Origin: Lachnospiraceae bacterium
GTDB taxonomy: Bacteria > Bacillota_A > Clostridia > Lachnospirales > Lachnospiraceae
Length of the DNA stretch: 10,373 bases
Direction of reading: 5' to 3'
Assembly (NCBI GenBank): GCA_031262285.1
Contig: JAISHZ010000043.1
Span: 1-10,373, forward strand
Shown in pieces: positions 4,721 to 10,373 of the stretch. A model generated the notes under the pieces. The model was not told the DNA's origin. It saw only the letters and a program-made list of their open reading frames with translations, and made no database searches. The translations under genes were made by a program, and so were the position numbers. Every line of letters begins with the position of its first letter. Positions within the stretch are counted from its first letter, which is position 1.

Positions 4721-4825
4721 ATAAATGCGCGCTAAAGCGCGCAGATTGGAGTCAAGTGTGAAAGTAAAGATCACTTTCACACCTCTTGATTTAAATGCGC
4801 GCTAAGGCGCGCAGATAGGAGTCTA
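4721..4825 (+). repeat. Modular hairpin leader repeat, copy A (before yycJ)
   Basis: This repeat nearly fills the spacer between the FtsA-like gene and yycJ. Parts in order: distal GC-rich hairpin TGCGCGC/GCGCGCA (4726-4743), AGATTGGAGTCAA, A/T-rich hairpin with a perfect 10-bp stem GTGTGAAAGT/ACTTTCACAC (4756-4782, 7-base loop), CTCTTGATTT, proximal GC-rich hairpin (4796-4813), then AGATAGGAGTCTA and the GTG start of yycJ. The blocks at 4721-4758 and 4791-4828 are a direct repeat with a 70-base period. AGGAG at 4817-4821 is the working ribosome-binding site, four bases from the GTG. No U-run follows any stem, so these do not look like intrinsic terminators. Two further copies lie at 5626-5996 (split) and on the minus strand at 8391-8487. 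Confidence 0.88.
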
Positions 4826-5623
4826 GTGAGAATTTGCAGTATTGCGAGCGGAAGTTCGGGAAATTGTATTTATGTTGGATCAGAGACTACGCATTTACTC
4901 GTTGACGTGGGAATCAGCAAAAAGAGAACTGTGGAGGCTCTGAACAAGTTGGAATTGACTGCGAGCAATATTGATGCTGTCTTGGTCACCCATGAACACA
5001 GTGATCATATTCAAGGATTGTATACTGTCGCCGCGACACACCACATTCCCATCTATTGCACAGCAGGAACCATACAAGCGATTCAAAGCCGCTTAGTTGG
5101 GCAGAAGATAGATCCCGCATTGTTTGTTCCGATTCAAGTGGATGAAAAAGTGATCCTCAAAGACCTGCTCATTCATCCAATGCGCGTTTCACACGATGCC
5201 GCAGATCCTGTTGCTTACCGAATCTCTTATGGCAAAAGAAAAGTCGGGATATGTACCGATCTGGGTATCTATGATGACTATACGATAGAGTCCTTGCGTG
5301 GGATGGATGTCCTTTTACTGGAAGCCAATCATGACATTGATATGCTCCAAAAAGGATCTTATCCATATCCTTTAAAAAAGCGGATATTGGGAGAAAGAGG
5401 ACACTTGTCCAACGTTAGTTCCGGTCGTTTGTTGTGCCGACTTTTGCATGACCACCTGTCTACTATCATATTGGGGCATCTGAGTCAAGAAAACAATTTA
5501 CCTGAACTAGCTTATGAGGCAGTACGATTGGAAATCACGCTTGATGAAACTACATATTCTAGGCGGGATGTGCCCATCCAAGTCGCCAAACGCAGCACCA
5601 TGTCAGAAGTGATTACTATATAA
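4826..5623 (+). CDS. yycJ: YycJ/WalJ-like metallo-beta-lactamase-fold hydrolase
   Basis: A cytoplasmic metallo-hydrolase of the MBL superfamily, 265 residues, the usual size for YycJ. The N-terminus carries SGSSGNCIYV. The first metal motif is THEHSDH (H56, H58, D60, H61), followed by SHDAADP (H123), CTDLG (D145), LLLEANHD (E166 to D170) and the late LGHLSQENN segment. Together these are the YycJ pattern. YycJ is described as a probable nuclease and in Bacillus sits with the WalKR two-component genes; no walRK is visible here, so a link to cell-wall control cannot be assumed. The GTG start at 4826 is supported by AGGAG at 4817-4821, although the four-base spacing is short, and by the homologous layout of the other leader copies. 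The stop at 5623 is two bases before the next leader repeat. I am sure of the fold and fairly sure of the subfamily. Confidence 0.88.
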   Translation: MRICSIASGSSGNCIYVGSETTHLLVDVGISKKRTVEALNKLELTASNIDAVLVTHEHSDHIQGLYTVAATHHIPIYCTAGTIQAIQSRLVGQKIDPALFVPIQVDEKVILKDLLIHPMRVSHDAADPVAYRISYGKRKVGICTDLGIYDDYTIESLRGMDVLLLEANHDIDMLQKGSYPYPLKKRILGERGHLSNVSSGRLLCRLLHDHLSTIILGHLSQENNLPELAYEAVRLEITLDETTYSRRDVPIQVAKRSTMSEVITI

Positions 5624-5625
5624 AA

Positions 5626-5661
5626 GTACACCTGGCGTACAGACGAGAGCAAAATTGAAAG
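5626..5661 (+). repeat. Leader repeat copy B, distal fragment (left of insertion)
   Basis: A degenerate distal GC-type hairpin, GTACACC T GGCGTAC at 5626-5640, is followed by AGACGAGAGC and AAATTGAAAG. It lines up with the same part of copy C (GGCGCACAGACGGGAGCAC, then ATTTGAAAG). One stem position changes from G:C to A:T on both sides, while another has become an A/C mismatch. The repeat breaks off at 5661 and resumes at 5925, so I read this as the left half of a leader copy split by the element at 5662-5924. Confidence 0.7.
5652..5661 (+). repeat. Putative target-site duplication, left copy
   Basis: AAATTGAAAG occurs here and, identically, at 5925-5934, immediately flanking the palindromic element. 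The neighbouring bases differ on both sides, so the repeat is exactly 10 bp. In the intact leader copy C this place holds a single ATTTGAAAG, the 5' arm of the A/T-rich hairpin, which is the expectation for a duplicated insertion target. Confidence 0.65.
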
Positions 5662-5924
5662 TGTTAGTATTCACGCGTTTGCCGATCTACGTTTATAGCC
5701 AATCGATGCACAGAACCGCACAGAGCCAAGGGGAGTTTTGGGTGTTATACGTTCTGTGGAGATGAGACCAAGTGAAAATGAGCGCTTGCTTGTGCGCGCA
5801 TTTTCACTGCCATGGGCTCATCGGAACGCTCAGAGAGTCTAACACCCAAAACTCCCCTTGGCTCTGTGTGGTTCGTCCGGGAGACACTGCCTTTGAAATG
5901 TAAACAAGCGAACGCGTGAGTAGT
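5662..5924. mobile_element. Palindromic MITE-like element (263 bp), no gene
   Basis: A long interrupted palindrome without a credible reading frame. The outer arms are TCACGCGTTTGC (5671-5682) and GCGAACGCGTGA (5908-5919), pairing over 12 bp with one G-U. Weaker pairing reaches outward to 5664 and 5926, slightly into the right direct repeat. Inside are the 35-bp arms at 5713-5747 and 5840-5874, then smaller nested stems down to a GCGC/GCGC tip. An exact 10-bp direct repeat flanks it, and the flanks joined together restore a leader repeat like copy C. That argues for insertion of a non-autonomous mobile element. A structured RNA gene is the main alternative. No transposase is in the window, so any mobilising enzyme would act in trans. 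Confidence 0.68.
5713..5874. repeat. Near-perfect 35-bp inverted repeat forming a long hairpin
   Basis: The arms at 5713-5747 and 5840-5874 are complementary over 35 positions, 29 of them without interruption (5719-5747 with 5840-5868), then one G-U and five more pairs. Nested inside are CGTTC/GAACG (5750-5754 with 5824-5828), GATGAG/CTCATC (5761-5766 with 5817-5822), AGTGAAAATG/CATTTTCACT (5771-5780 with 5799-5808) and GCGC/GCGC (5782-5785 with 5794-5797). Transcribed from either strand, this would be a very stable rod. It lacks a trailing U-run, so it is not a standard terminator, though it could block or process read-through from yycJ into the ACT gene. Confidence 0.93.
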
Positions 5925-5996
5925 AAATTGAAAGAAAGAAAAAGCTTTCAAAATCTTGATTAAGATGTGCGCCTAAGGCGCACAGACGGGAGTTTT
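5925..5996 (+). repeat. Leader repeat copy B, proximal part (ACT gene leader)
   Basis: It starts with the right copy of AAATTGAAAG (5925-5934). Next come the A/T-rich hairpin TTGAAAG/CTTTCAA (5928-5934 with 5945-5951), AATCTTGATTAAGA, and the GC-rich hairpin TGTGCGCC TAA GGCGCACA (5966-5984). GACGGGAGTTTT then leads into the ATG at 5997. GGGAG at 5988-5992 is the ribosome-binding site, four bases from the start as in copy A. Compared with copy A, the GC stem has changed on both strands yet still pairs. Confidence 0.88.
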
Positions 5997-6272
5997 ATGA
6001 AGAAAACGATTATTACTGTTATTGGAAAGGATACTGTGGGTATTATCGCTAAGGTTTGCACTTATTTAGCGGAGAATGGGATTAATATCTTGGATATCTC
6101 ACAGACGATCGTACAGGAGTATTTTAACATGATGATGATTGTGGATACCTCACAAATCACGAATCAAAACTTCACAAATATGGCGGATGATTTGGAAACT
6201 CTTGGCAAAGAGATCGGAGTCATGATCAAATGTCAAAGAGAAGAAATATTCGCACAAATGCATCGAATATAG
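5997..6272 (+). CDS. ACT domain protein, UPF0237 family
   Basis: A 91-residue single ACT domain starting MKKTIITVIGKDTVGIIAKV. The GKDxxGI turn is where ACT domains bind small ligands, usually amino acids. It continues with VCTYLAENGINILDISQTI and YFNMMMIVD, the normal beta-alpha-beta order, then a second helix and strand. The full length matches UPF0237. The ATG at 5997 is chosen because GGGAG precedes it by four bases and the domain begins at once. A GTG at 5967 in the same frame lies inside the leader hairpin and would add ten residues of hairpin-encoded sequence. The UPF0210 gene follows after 24 bases. The two families are commonly adjacent in Firmicutes and archaea, which suggests that the ACT protein is a sensor or partner subunit. 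The ligand is unknown. Confidence 0.93.
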   Translation: MKKTIITVIGKDTVGIIAKVCTYLAENGINILDISQTIVQEYFNMMMIVDTSQITNQNFTNMADDLETLGKEIGVMIKCQREEIFAQMHRI

Positions 6273-6296
6273 TAAAGAATAGGAGTCAAATAGTAC

Positions 6297-7661
6297 ATGG
6301 TAAATATATTTGAAGTTACCGAAACAAACGATATGATTCAAAAAGAAAATTTGGATGTACGTACCATCACCATGGGAATCAGTTTGCTGGATTGCATAGA
6401 CGCAGATCTGGAACGACTCACTTCCAATATTTATCATAAAATTTGCGAAAGCGCTAAAGAGTTGGTTCGTGTAGGAGATGAAATCGGTCGTGAATTCGGG
6501 ATACCGATCGTCAATAAACGAATATCCGTTACACCAATCTCCCTCATCGGTGCCTCTGCGTGCAAGACCCCGGCAGATTTTGTGAAAATCGCACAGAGCT
6601 TGGATCGAGCCGCTCTTGAAGTGGGAGTCAATTTCATTGGCGGATTTTGCGCACTTGTCAGCAAGTCTATGACACGAGCGGATGAATTGTTGATACGAGC
6701 AATACCGGAAGCGCTGGCGACGACACAACGCGTGTGTAGTTCGGTGAATGTAGGTTCCACCAAAACGGGTATCAACATGGACGCAGTGCGGCTACTGGGG
6801 AATATCATCGTAGAAACCGCACAATGGACGAAAGAGCAAGATAGTATCGGCTGTGCGAAGTTGGTGGTATTTTGTAATGCGCCGGACGACAATCCGTTTA
6901 TGGCGGGCGCGTTTCATGGTGTAACAGAAGCGGACAGTATTATCAATGTGGGAGTGAGTGGTCCCGGAGTGGTAAAGACTGCCTTGCAGAAAGTACGAGG
7001 CGAAAGCTTCGAAGTATTGTGTGAGACGATTAAAAAGACGGCTTTTAAGGTAACCAGAGTCGGGCAGCTTGTTGCCAAAGAAGCGTCGAAGCGTCTTGGC
7101 GTACCGTTCGGGATCGTGGATCTATCGTTGGCTCCGACCCCGGCGATCGGAGACAGCGTGGCGGATATCTTGTGCGAGATCGGACTGGAATACCCGGGAG
7201 CGCCCGGAACGACAGCAGCCTTGGCACTCTTAAATGACCAAGTCAAAAAAGGCGGCGTGATGGCTTCTTCGTATGTCGGCGGATTGAGTGGAGCATTTAT
7301 ACCCGTTAGCGAGGATCAAGGGATGATAGACGCTGTAGCGATTGGAGCCTTAACCCTTGAAAAGTTAGAGGCGATGACATGTGTCTGCTCCGTTGGGTTG
7401 GATATGATCGCAATACCGGGAGATACCGCACCCGCCTCGATTTCCGGGATAATTGCGGATGAGATGGCGATTGGTATGGTGAATCAAAAGACGACCGCTG
7501 TACGTATCATCCCCGTAATAGGCAAAACAGTCGGAGAACAAGCACATTTTGGCGGATTACTCGGATATGCGCCCATTATGCCGATCAATCGCTTTTCTTG
7601 TGAAGCCTTTATTGCTCGCAGTGGTAGAATCCCGGCACCAATTCATAGCTTTCGTAATTGA
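6297..7661 (+). CDS. UPF0210 (DUF711/PFL-family) protein
   Basis: A 454-residue cytoplasmic protein of the UPF0210/DUF711 family, full length. Characteristic stretches are [13 protein letters not shown] near the N-terminus, [14 protein letters not shown] (C118), [25 protein letters not shown] (G219 to K227), [12 protein letters not shown] (around 298-309) and [14 protein letters not shown] close to the end. The biochemical role is not established as far as I know; the glycine-rich loops suggest binding of a phosphate or small ligand, which is inference. AGGAG at 6281-6285 lies 11 bases from the ATG, rather far but the best available. The gene follows the ACT gene closely, so the two are probably cotranscribed. 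Its stop codon abuts that of the opposing traX gene with no space for a terminator. Confidence 0.93.
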
Positions 7662-8390
7662 TCATATAACACCCATAGCATAATGAAGAATTCCTATGAC
7701 CAATAAGTTAAGAGGATATAGCATATAAAAAACCCACTTCGCGAGGAAAGGATTCCGGCTCGGATGATTGGAACGTTTCCCATTGTAAAGCAAAAACAAT
7801 GGAATGGTCGCGAATAAGCCAAATGTCATAAATCCGAGATCACCCCTAAATAGGTAATTCAAACCTTCGCTCATGAAAAGACATATAATAGCAGAAAAGG
7901 TAAACCATTTCAGTTGTTCTTTTCGATTTCCATCATTTAAACCAAATGAGAGAATAAACAGAATCCCAAACAAAAACCAGTCACAGAATAAAGACCCCAC
8001 AAAACAAAGCGCCACGCAGAGCGCTTTGTAACTGCGTGAACGATTGCTTTTGAGTACAGACATTGCAATTAAGCCGAATAAAAGAGTAAAAAGAACATTC
8101 AGCGATTCCGCACCGATCCCAAGAGGAAACGCTTCACCTGTCATAAAATAGGAAAAAGGGATTTGCGCAATCAAAGCGAAAACAAACAAACGCGTTTGAT
8201 ACTTCTGTAAATCTCGGGTATGATGAAATCCTTCCGCGATAAAAAAACACATAATCGGAATGGTCATTCTTCCGATAAAATGCATAAACTCCAATATGAA
8301 TACAGGCGCTTGCAATTTCCAAGCAACATGATCGATGATCATTGCAAGAATCGCGATCCATTTGAGAGAAGTCCCGGATAATTTTTGCAT
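7662..8390 (-). CDS. TraX-family membrane protein
   Basis: A 242-residue hydrophobic protein with about eight membrane segments and no signal peptide. It fits the TraX family, named for the F-plasmid pilin N-acetylase. Features seen: LKWIAILAMIIDH (D20, H21), FIGRMTIPIMCFFIAEGF (G40, R41, E53, G54), HTRDLQKYQTRL, FALIAQIPFSYF, and YMLYPLNLLVIGILHY near the C-terminus. Chromosomal TraX relatives are common in Firmicutes without conjugation genes, and none is visible here, so an acyltransferase acting on a surface molecule is a reasonable inference but unproven. The ATG at 8390 follows ATAGGAACGT, the end of leader copy C. It lies downstream of tmcAL on the same strand, 106 bases away. Its stop and the UPF0210 stop together form the palindrome TGATCA. 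Confidence 0.86.
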   Translation of the reverse strand: MQKLSGTSLKWIAILAMIIDHVAWKLQAPVFILEFMHFIGRMTIPIMCFFIAEGFHHTRDLQKYQTRLFVFALIAQIPFSYFMTGEAFPLGIGAESLNVLFTLLFGLIAMSVLKSNRSRSYKALCVALCFVGSLFCDWFLFGILFILSFGLNDGNRKEQLKWFTFSAIICLFMSEGLNYLFRGDLGFMTFGLFATIPLFLLYNGKRSNHPSRNPFLAKWVFYMLYPLNLLVIGILHYAMGVI

Positions 8391-8487
8391 ACGTTCCTAT
8401 TCTGTGCGCCAAAGGCGCACGTTTCAATCAAGGATATTGAAAGCTTTCTTGCTTTCAAATGTGCTCCCGTCTGTGCGCCAAAGGCGC
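8391..8487 (-). repeat. Modular hairpin leader repeat, copy C (before traX)
   Basis: Read on the minus strand, this contains: distal GC hairpin GCGCC TTT GGCGC (8487-8475, shorter than the other copies), ACAGACGGGAGCAC, A/T-rich hairpin TTGAAAGC/GCTTTCAA (8458-8451 with 8444-8437), ATATCCTTGATTGAAAC, proximal GC hairpin GTGCGCC TTT GGCGCAC (8420-8404), AGAATAGGAACGT, then the traX ATG at 8390. Order and spacing match copies A and B. The repeat occupies nearly all of the gap between tmcAL and traX and supplies the AGGA ribosome-binding site. Its loop, TTT, replaces the TAA of copy B, while the GC stem is the same. Confidence 0.87.
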
Positions 8488-9960: not shown

Positions 9961-10373
9961 ATGTCCTATATCGATCGAATCAAAGAACGGGCCAGATTTG
10001 ACAAAAAGACCATAGTGTTACCGGAGACGACCGACAAACGTACCCTTATCGCTGCGGCGAAAATTATCGAAGAAAAAATAGCGGATATTATCATGATCGG
10101 CAATGAAGAAAAGATCATGGATGGTGCGGGATGGCTTGAAGTGGATCTCACCGAAGTCAAAGTAATTGATCCGCAGACGACACCGCTCCTCGACGAATAT
10201 GTGAATCTCTTATATGAAACAAGAAAATCAAAAGGGATGACATTGGAATTGGCTAGAGAAACCCTACTCAAAGACTCTTTGACATTTGGCATTATGATGG
10301 TAAAGGCCGGACACGCAGATGGGATGGTCGCGGGTGCCTGCCATTCGACTGCGGATACCTTACGCCCGGCGCT
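9961..10373 (+). CDS. pta: Phosphate acetyltransferase, 3'-truncated by the window edge
   Basis: Interconverts acetyl-CoA plus phosphate with acetyl-phosphate plus CoA, the first half of the Pta-Ack route that yields acetate and ATP in fermenting bacteria. The first 137 residues of a usual ~330 are present, with no sign of an extra N-terminal domain, so it is the short form. Visible are MSYIDRIKERARFDKKTIVLPE at the start, RTLIAAAKIIEE, ADIIMIGNEE, and KAGHADGMVAGACHSTADTLRPA at the edge, a stretch typical of the phosphotransacetylase family. The ATG at 9961 has AAAGGAG nine bases upstream. An ackA gene would be expected just outside the window but cannot be seen. The neighbour tmcAL consumes acetate. 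Confidence 0.94.
   Translation, partial: MSYIDRIKERARFDKKTIVLPETTDKRTLIAAAKIIEEKIADIIMIGNEEKIMDGAGWLEVDLTEVKVIDPQTTPLLDEYVNLLYETRKSKGMTLELARETLLKDSLTFGIMMVKAGHADGMVAGACHSTADTLRPA

Follow-up and report, generated by a model that had tools for sequence, protein, structure and literature searches.

The window analysed here, that is the whole 10.4 kb stretch of contig JAISHZ010000043.1, is Lachnospiraceae-like chromosome carrying polA, coaE, an FtsA-like gene, an MBL-fold gene, an ACT-domain gene, DUF711, a TraX-family gene and a HIGH-nucleotidyltransferase gene, and three of its intergenic leaders are built from copies of one small hairpin repeat. An earlier note on this DNA had described these three spacers as sharing a single architecture, and all three lie where it placed them: each contains a GC hairpin (hairpin 1, hp1), a GGAG, a second hairpin (hp2), TTGATT, hp1 again, a GGAG-like site and then a start codon, with the claimed gaps of 3-4 nucleotides (nt) between the Shine-Dalgarno sequence (SD) and the start. 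The core unit in these copies is hp2, TTGATT, hp1 and an AGAnnGGAG-like site, followed by the start codon. Copy A leads the MBL-fold gene (4826..5623, plus strand), which we presume to be yycJ-like, following the earlier note; copy B leads the ACT-domain gene (5997..6272, plus strand) and copy C the TraX-family gene (7662..8390, minus strand).

Copy A, on the plus strand, starts with an hp1 of sequence TGCGCGC-TAAA-GCGCGCA (4726..4743), which gives a partial covariance-model match at 4722-4755, and continues with an internal, SD-like GGAG (4748..4751) that is followed by hp2 instead of a gene. This hp2 (4756..4782) has the form GTGTGAAAGT-loop-ACTTTCACAC, with arms at 4756-4765 and 4773-4782, and a TTGAT link (4786..4790) lies 5' of the terminal hp1 (4796-4813), which together with AGATAGGAG (GGAG at 4818-4821) makes up the segment 4796..4821 and provides the SD of yycJ, whose GTG is at 4826. 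Copy B, also on the plus strand, is split: its upstream part (5626..5661) holds a degenerate hp1 (5626-5640), GAGAG (5645-5649) and the 5' arm of hp2, and its downstream part (5928..5996) holds hp2, TTGAT (5956-5960), hp1 (5966-5984), GGGAG (5988-5992) and the ATG at 5997. Between them, within hp2, lies a 263-bp palindromic insert (5662..5924, plus strand) that is outside the repeat family, has inner arms of 44 nt and outer arms of 31 nt, and is bracketed by 10-bp direct repeats AAATTGAAAG at 5652-5661 and 5925-5934; it looks like a miniature inverted-repeat transposable element that landed in the repeat, and a search of 117 genomes related to G204, made without a positive control, returned no match to it. 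Copy C (8391..8487, minus strand) has hp1 at 8475-8487, GGGAG at 8464-8468, hp2 at 8437-8458 and CTTGATT at 8426-8432, and its 3' part consists of hp1 (8404-8420), AGGAA (8394-8398) and the ATG at 8390-8388.

Shuffle-based folding, which covered copies A and C, gave z = -6.7 for copy A, equalled by 0 of 200 shuffles, and z = -2.3 for copy C, equalled by 2 of 200. In an alignment of 29 hand-picked units, TGATT was nearly invariant 5' of hp1. After exclusion of the six rows with a poor hp2, the remaining 23 served as seeds for a covariance model (R1) that describes hp1 pairs only; since the window copies are among these seeds, their own scores cannot count as independent evidence, which comes from the other genomes. 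At E <= 0.05, R1 found 119 matches in 1.22 Mb of unit-rich sequence, whereas 78 other loci, 1.35 Mb in total, gave 5. The unit-rich set consisted mostly of tiles from five genomes (G001, G002, G202, G209 and G216), plus the window and two loci, L025 and L030, that were shifted into it from the 80 loci holding the best yycJ relatives, and the tiles were partly picked on contigs known to hold matches, so that these densities are not unbiased. The 119 matches comprised 50 from G001, 45 from G002, 11 from G202, 6 from G216, 3 from G209 and 4 from the window. The yycJ relatives themselves are 57-67% identical to the window gene, and a majority are labelled Lachnospiraceae or belong to genera assigned there, with a few bearing other labels.

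Across these 119 rows, hp1 was paired in 96.4% of cells, with two-sided changes in 83 cells compared with 33 in shuffles, and its covariation score was 0.352 compared with 0.180. No shuffle out of 500 reached the observed value on four of the five measures; on the fifth, the number of pairs changed on both sides (5), 21 of 500 did. Pairings slid along the stem scored at most 0.109, yet the +2 slide had six pairs with two-sided changes. Non-canonical cells in hp1 were G.U more often than A.C (36 vs 15), which points to the sense strand as the folded one, with the caveats that these cells are not independent and that model scoring may favour G.U; no such bias was seen in hp2 (5 vs 7). For hp2, a scripted test on the 86 of 119 matches with a TGATT-like anchor found a perfect stem of at least seven pairs in 44, compared with 5.5% of plain letter shuffles, and these stems were of 36 distinct sequences, such as GGTTGAAAG/CTTTCAACC, AGGCTGAAAG/CTTTCAGCCT, GTGTGAAAGT/ACTTTCACAC and GGCGGAAAG/CTTTCCGCC. 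Both the stem and the loop of hp1 varied in sequence across matches, and the downstream genes had no common theme, as judged by inspection and, for the genes of the window, by comparison with family libraries; these two observations argue against a riboswitch, and the earlier note had likewise argued against a pathway riboswitch. Its impression that the layout belongs to no named family also agrees with Rfam, which at gathering score matched no family in the window and, across nine loci with units, nothing but two tRNAs; two mir-3047 matches were rejected, as they lie inside the palindromic insert and below the gathering score.

The position of the units relative to genes was strongly biased. 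The ATG of an open reading frame of at least 100 amino acids lay 4-8 nt downstream of 61 of the 119 matches, at 5 or 6 nt in 51 of these, compared with 126 of 5,950 random 16-nt windows of the same sequence; the same test was positive for 605 of 13,522 background GGAG sites (4.5%) and for 57 of the 103 matches having GGAG. The covariance-model search returned many copies in relatives, with significant hp1 covariation and about half of them directly before starts, rather than the three window copies only. Another 15 matches run into the next unit, and for 37 a looser test, which has no matched control, places an SD and a start within 250 nt, many of these 37 preceding units missed by the model, short genes or GTG/TTG genes. 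Orientation was one-sided: for 64 of 119 matches such an ATG reading frame begins on the same strand no more than 30 nt from the 3' edge, and for 2 it begins on the opposite strand no more than 30 nt from the 5' edge. The upstream neighbour was co-directional for 60 of 70 unit-led genes, compared with 681 of 921 genes overall.

When the leaders of yycJ were inspected by eye at 81 loci, a unit or decayed unit was seen in the window, L014, L025 and L042, a possible remnant in L030 and an unlike hairpin in L054. This last hairpin, CAAATTTTG..CAAAATTTG followed by TAGACATGGAG, belongs to a termite-type locus from a metagenome-assembled genome (MAG) that has no model matches. In L025 (around 6040-6075), the 3' end of coaE appears to be overlapped by the first hp1 and GGGAG of the array (compare L030), so that the end of the upstream protein may have been altered by the unit. 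A weak model match that ends in AGACGGGAG, or in an AGA-type SD, before DUF711 is common to the sister loci L058, L059 and L061, and L057 resembles this DUF711 leader by eye.

Genome-wide counts indicate how unevenly the repeat is distributed. A core pattern, TGATT-N(8-24)-CAGANNGGAG, occurred 199 times in G001 and 154 times in G002, and its reversed form 0 times in both. The pattern was found in 153 of 195 genomes related to G001 (G001 and G002 included); among the other 193, the top counts were 26 and 14 and the majority had a handful, as chance would give. With R1, units were found in at least 10 of 116 relatives, in at least 15 of 32 genomes drawn from the 80 yycJ-relative loci, with at least 53 matches in G202, 76 in G216 and 25 in G209, and in at least 2 of 341 genomes of a class-wide sample, one of them G001; these counts are lower bounds, from scoring up to 44, 150 and 15 candidates per genome in the three sets, respectively. 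Subfamilies depended on the genome, for example GTTTGAAAG-TAA-ACTTTCAAA in G209 and GGTGAAAAAG..TTTTCACC in G216. The repeat family is patchily amplified.

Comparisons between related species revealed two sites that are filled in one and empty in the other, each with a 65-nt unit that stands 3' of an SD, directly before the start codon, and has an SD of its own. In the clean pair, the filled locus L264 (G017) reads TTTATGGAACAGGAGGAA, the unit, ATG, and the empty locus L295 (G007) reads TTTATGGAATCGGAGGAA, AT, ATG, with otherwise similar flanks; in full, L264 has ...CTTTGGTTTATGGAACAGGAGGAA, the 65 nt GTTTGAAACAAAGTACGTTTCAAATATTGAATTAATGTCCGCTGAAGCGGACAAGGAGTATAATT and ATGAAAAC, and L295 has ...CTTTGGTTTATGGAATCGGAGGAA-AT-ATGAAAAC. 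Because this pair has no outgroup, it does not tell a gain in G017 from a loss in G007. In the less clean pair, the filled locus L237 (G007) reads AAGGGAGAA, the unit, ATG, and the empty locus L236 (G017) reads AAGGGAGAA, TGGGAA, ATG (empty-site sequence AAGGGAGAATGGGAAATGGAT), where the spacer before the SD differs from L237 as well; G008 and G009 are also unit-free at this site, which favours a gain in G007. Neither pair has a clear target duplication, and the sequence that follows the right-hand SD is no repeat of the left flank; SD-like letters (AGGAG, AAGGG) are found on both sides of the units.

This subfamily of units includes six young copies at >=92% identity, five in G007 and one in G017, with eight weaker or partial matches left out of the count. 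We viewed eight young copies by eye, namely these six and two of the three in the distant genome G572, which was reached only by the class-wide search. All eight lie directly 3' of an SD-like stretch, GGAG in seven and GGAA in one, which is a few nt from the unit and not a fixed motif, and all eight terminate in their own SD, followed by the start codon. The two G572 loci, L300 and L302, carry near-identical 65-nt units at two different genes.

Units also occur in arrays, in which they are head-to-tail. One gene is preceded in G001 by three complete units plus a partial one, in G002 by 1.5 units and in G007, G008 and G017 by a plain AGGAG; another has the hp1 type in G002, a sister hairpin type in G001 and neither in four further genomes. 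Anti-SD pairing of <= -4 kcal/mol was found in the 14 nt preceding the first hp2 of arrays for 64% of 33 such stems, part of which follow decayed units, compared with 18-33% at shifted positions. A sister module has a right hairpin TATCGCAGG..CCTGCGATATGC and an SD like GGGGTATAA; it was seen in L167 (around 10,030-10,060, minus strand) and in L162, L117, L118, L113, L122, L129 and L200. A pattern search of the tiles found 11 of these modules, of which a loose test placed 5 before a start and 4 lead into a further unit, and stretches beside the module match many places in G002.

Altogether, we consider it probable that the repeat is a small, dispersed and recently mobile element that inserts between an SD and its start codon, provides the gene with a new SD, serves as its leader and stacks into arrays. 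Genome counts, patchy amplification and the filled and empty sites support the earlier suggestion of an interspersed repeat that becomes a gene leader. The unit, of about 62-68 nt in Lachnospiraceae and relatives, consists of hp2, a TTGATT-like link, a GC-rich hp1 and an SD with its spacer. It would enter in one orientation, between the SD plus spacer of the host gene and its start codon, and the SD at its 3' end would then replace the host SD, so that the gene would not lose its ribosome-binding site and would have the unit as its new leader. The old SD, belonging to the host or to a previous unit, would be left upstream, ahead of hp2, and arrays would grow by repeated entry or by tandem duplication. 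The data show the architecture, stem pairing with its covariation, genome-wide number, position before starts, lineage-specific presence and the filled and empty sites; beyond these, we infer gain by transposition-like movement and retention through tolerance rather than through a selected benefit.

Several observations weigh against this scheme. Only one clean pair (of which the direction lacks an outgroup) and one less clean pair were found, both between species rather than strains, and six of the 119 matches, one of them at a contig end, have no SD-bearing start within 250 nt. No mobilising gene was found by a PF01797 search of 14 genomes: this Y1 transposase family had no matches in four of the five genomes richest in units (G001, G002, G202 and G209), and the 13 loci around Y1 matches contained no convincing unit (best E 0.11). 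The family had two matches in unit-rich G216 and was present in 8 of the 14 genomes, its presence not visibly following unit number; an enzyme may also have escaped notice in MAG assemblies. Finally, when the leaders of orthologs were compared for 14 of the 20 G007/G017 matches, a hairpin before the SD was sometimes also found in the other species, at shuffle p <= 0.055 in 4 of the 14 pairs, with its sequence turned over. Hairpins that are kept while the sequence turns over indicate that part of the leaders are old and may have been retained for a function, and this looks like selection on function.

A more specific form of the mobile-repeat scheme, which we put forward tentatively as rather unlikely, is a single-strand mobile element (HUH-type or analogous) for which the SD itself serves as cleavage and target motif. 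The sense strand would be cut 3' of GGAG(N)AA, entry would have a fixed orientation and the same motif would stand at the right end, so that each insertion would restore a ribosome-binding site and, with it, a target for the next insertion. If true, such SD-targeted self-repair would render insertions into expressed genes harmless and would alone yield head-to-tail arrays.

Among rival explanations, the one that survives best, although we rate it as rather unlikely, is that the units are selected cis-acting leader RNAs, in which the hp1 placed 5' of the SD and the repeated SD-hairpins block 5'-to-3' decay or tune initiation, and copies spread by their benefit; the protection from decay would resemble that of STAB-SD leaders. 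The hp1 covariation with its G.U excess, which points to the sense strand, the frequency of co-directional upstream neighbours at unit-led genes, the hairpins retained at some orthologous starts and the internal SDs retained in tandem arrays all fit this explanation. Against it, SD accessibility was 0.47 in 72 unit-led genes vs 0.44 in controls (200/339; p = 0.36) and vs 0.42 when the genes' own upstream part was shuffled (p = 0.07), measured over SD windows of 5 and 4 nt, and most species have no unit at the same gene, as seen for yycJ at the 81 loci. The general translation or RNA-stability device of the earlier note survives as this rival; one version of it, higher SD accessibility, was unsupported. 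An insulator of the ribosome-binding site was rejected, since SD accessibility was no different from that of control genes. We also rejected an anti-SD switch in which a CTCCC before TGATT would pair with either SD: it is plausible by eye in many G001/G002 units and is not general, as the G209 subfamily lacks it and the copies of the window show it weakly.

It is improbable, in our view, that the arrays arose without any movement, by in-place duplication of the ribosome-binding-site region through slippage or snap-back copying, with gene conversion homogenising the loci. Such a process would fit the array that differs in unit number between the sister species G001 and G002 and the SD repeated in each unit, but near-identical units stand at different genes with different flanking SDs (G007/G017, G572), and sister sites are entirely empty. 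A leader-peptide attenuator, in which the first SD and a TTG/GTG-AAA in hp2 would open a short reading frame controlling the second SD, is very hard to credit: TTGAAA or GTGAAA frequently forms the 5' arm of hp2, spaced from an SD as a start codon would be, but stems such as GGCTGAAAG, GGCGGAAAG and CGGAAAATC retain their pairing without a start codon, and reading frame and stop position vary between copies by eye.

Interspersed repeats are usually thought to be tolerable where gene expression is undisturbed. The present family occupies the highly sensitive gap between SD and start at many genes of some genomes and supplies the very part that it displaces. If the movement that we propose is confirmed, the unit would be a mobile ribosome-binding-site cassette with a new target-site logic and a source of natural leader diversity, and it would offer a ready-made test of what leader hairpins and extra SDs do in translation and mRNA decay.

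Some features of the units recall known systems. The STAB-SD leaders of Bacillus cry genes have an SD-like site without a gene, upstream of the real SD, as the units do, and are marked by 30S binding and protection from RNase J; they are not known to have a hairpin unit or to form a repeat family. Elements of the IS200/IS605 family are not known to cause target duplication; none is clear in the two filled and empty pairs of the present units, although SD-like letters stand on both sides. The ends of IS200/IS605 elements and of their non-autonomous derivatives have a hairpin near each end, comparable to hp2 on the left and hp1 on the right of the unit (PMC6006769), and a similar motif (GGAG/GGGG..AA) at the left flank and right end of the unit, together with its fixed orientation to the gene, adds to this likeness. 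Guide sequences lie 5' of hairpin feet in that family; in the unit, TGATT precedes hp1 and only the flanking SD lies 5' of hp2. Unlike in IS200/IS605, no transposase with such ends was found in our searches, no left guide sequence is evident and the motif at the flank varies instead of being one set tetranucleotide.

REP and REPIN sequences of TnpA-REP (RAYT) proteins resemble the units as high-copy short palindromes with a motif at the hairpin foot and several families per genome (PMC3733652, PMC6006769). REPs are often paired in opposite orientation and lie mostly downstream of coding regions (PMC3733652, PMC6006769); unlike such pairs (BIME/REPIN), the units of the present arrays are head-to-tail and upstream of starts, and PF01797 had no match in four of the five richest unit genomes.

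The BOX, RUP and SPRITE repeats of Streptococcus pneumoniae are, like the units, small modular interspersed repeats with a predicted RNA structure that expanded in one lineage, and the tandem inner modules of BOX (boxB) compare with the tandem modules of the present units (PMC3049150). The BOX-like character proposed in the earlier note holds as regards modularity. BOX and RUP have terminal inverted repeats and cause target duplications, and S. pneumoniae repeats are over-represented between convergent genes (16 BOX, with 70 upstream of a gene; PMC3049150). A literature search that covered few subscription journals found no paper whose title or opening of the abstract describes a repeat family inserting between SD and start codon. 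Small interspersed repeats are already known as a kind; what appears to be new here is a repeat that, unlike BOX and RUP, lies mainly right before starts in one orientation, without clear target duplication, and brings its own SD.

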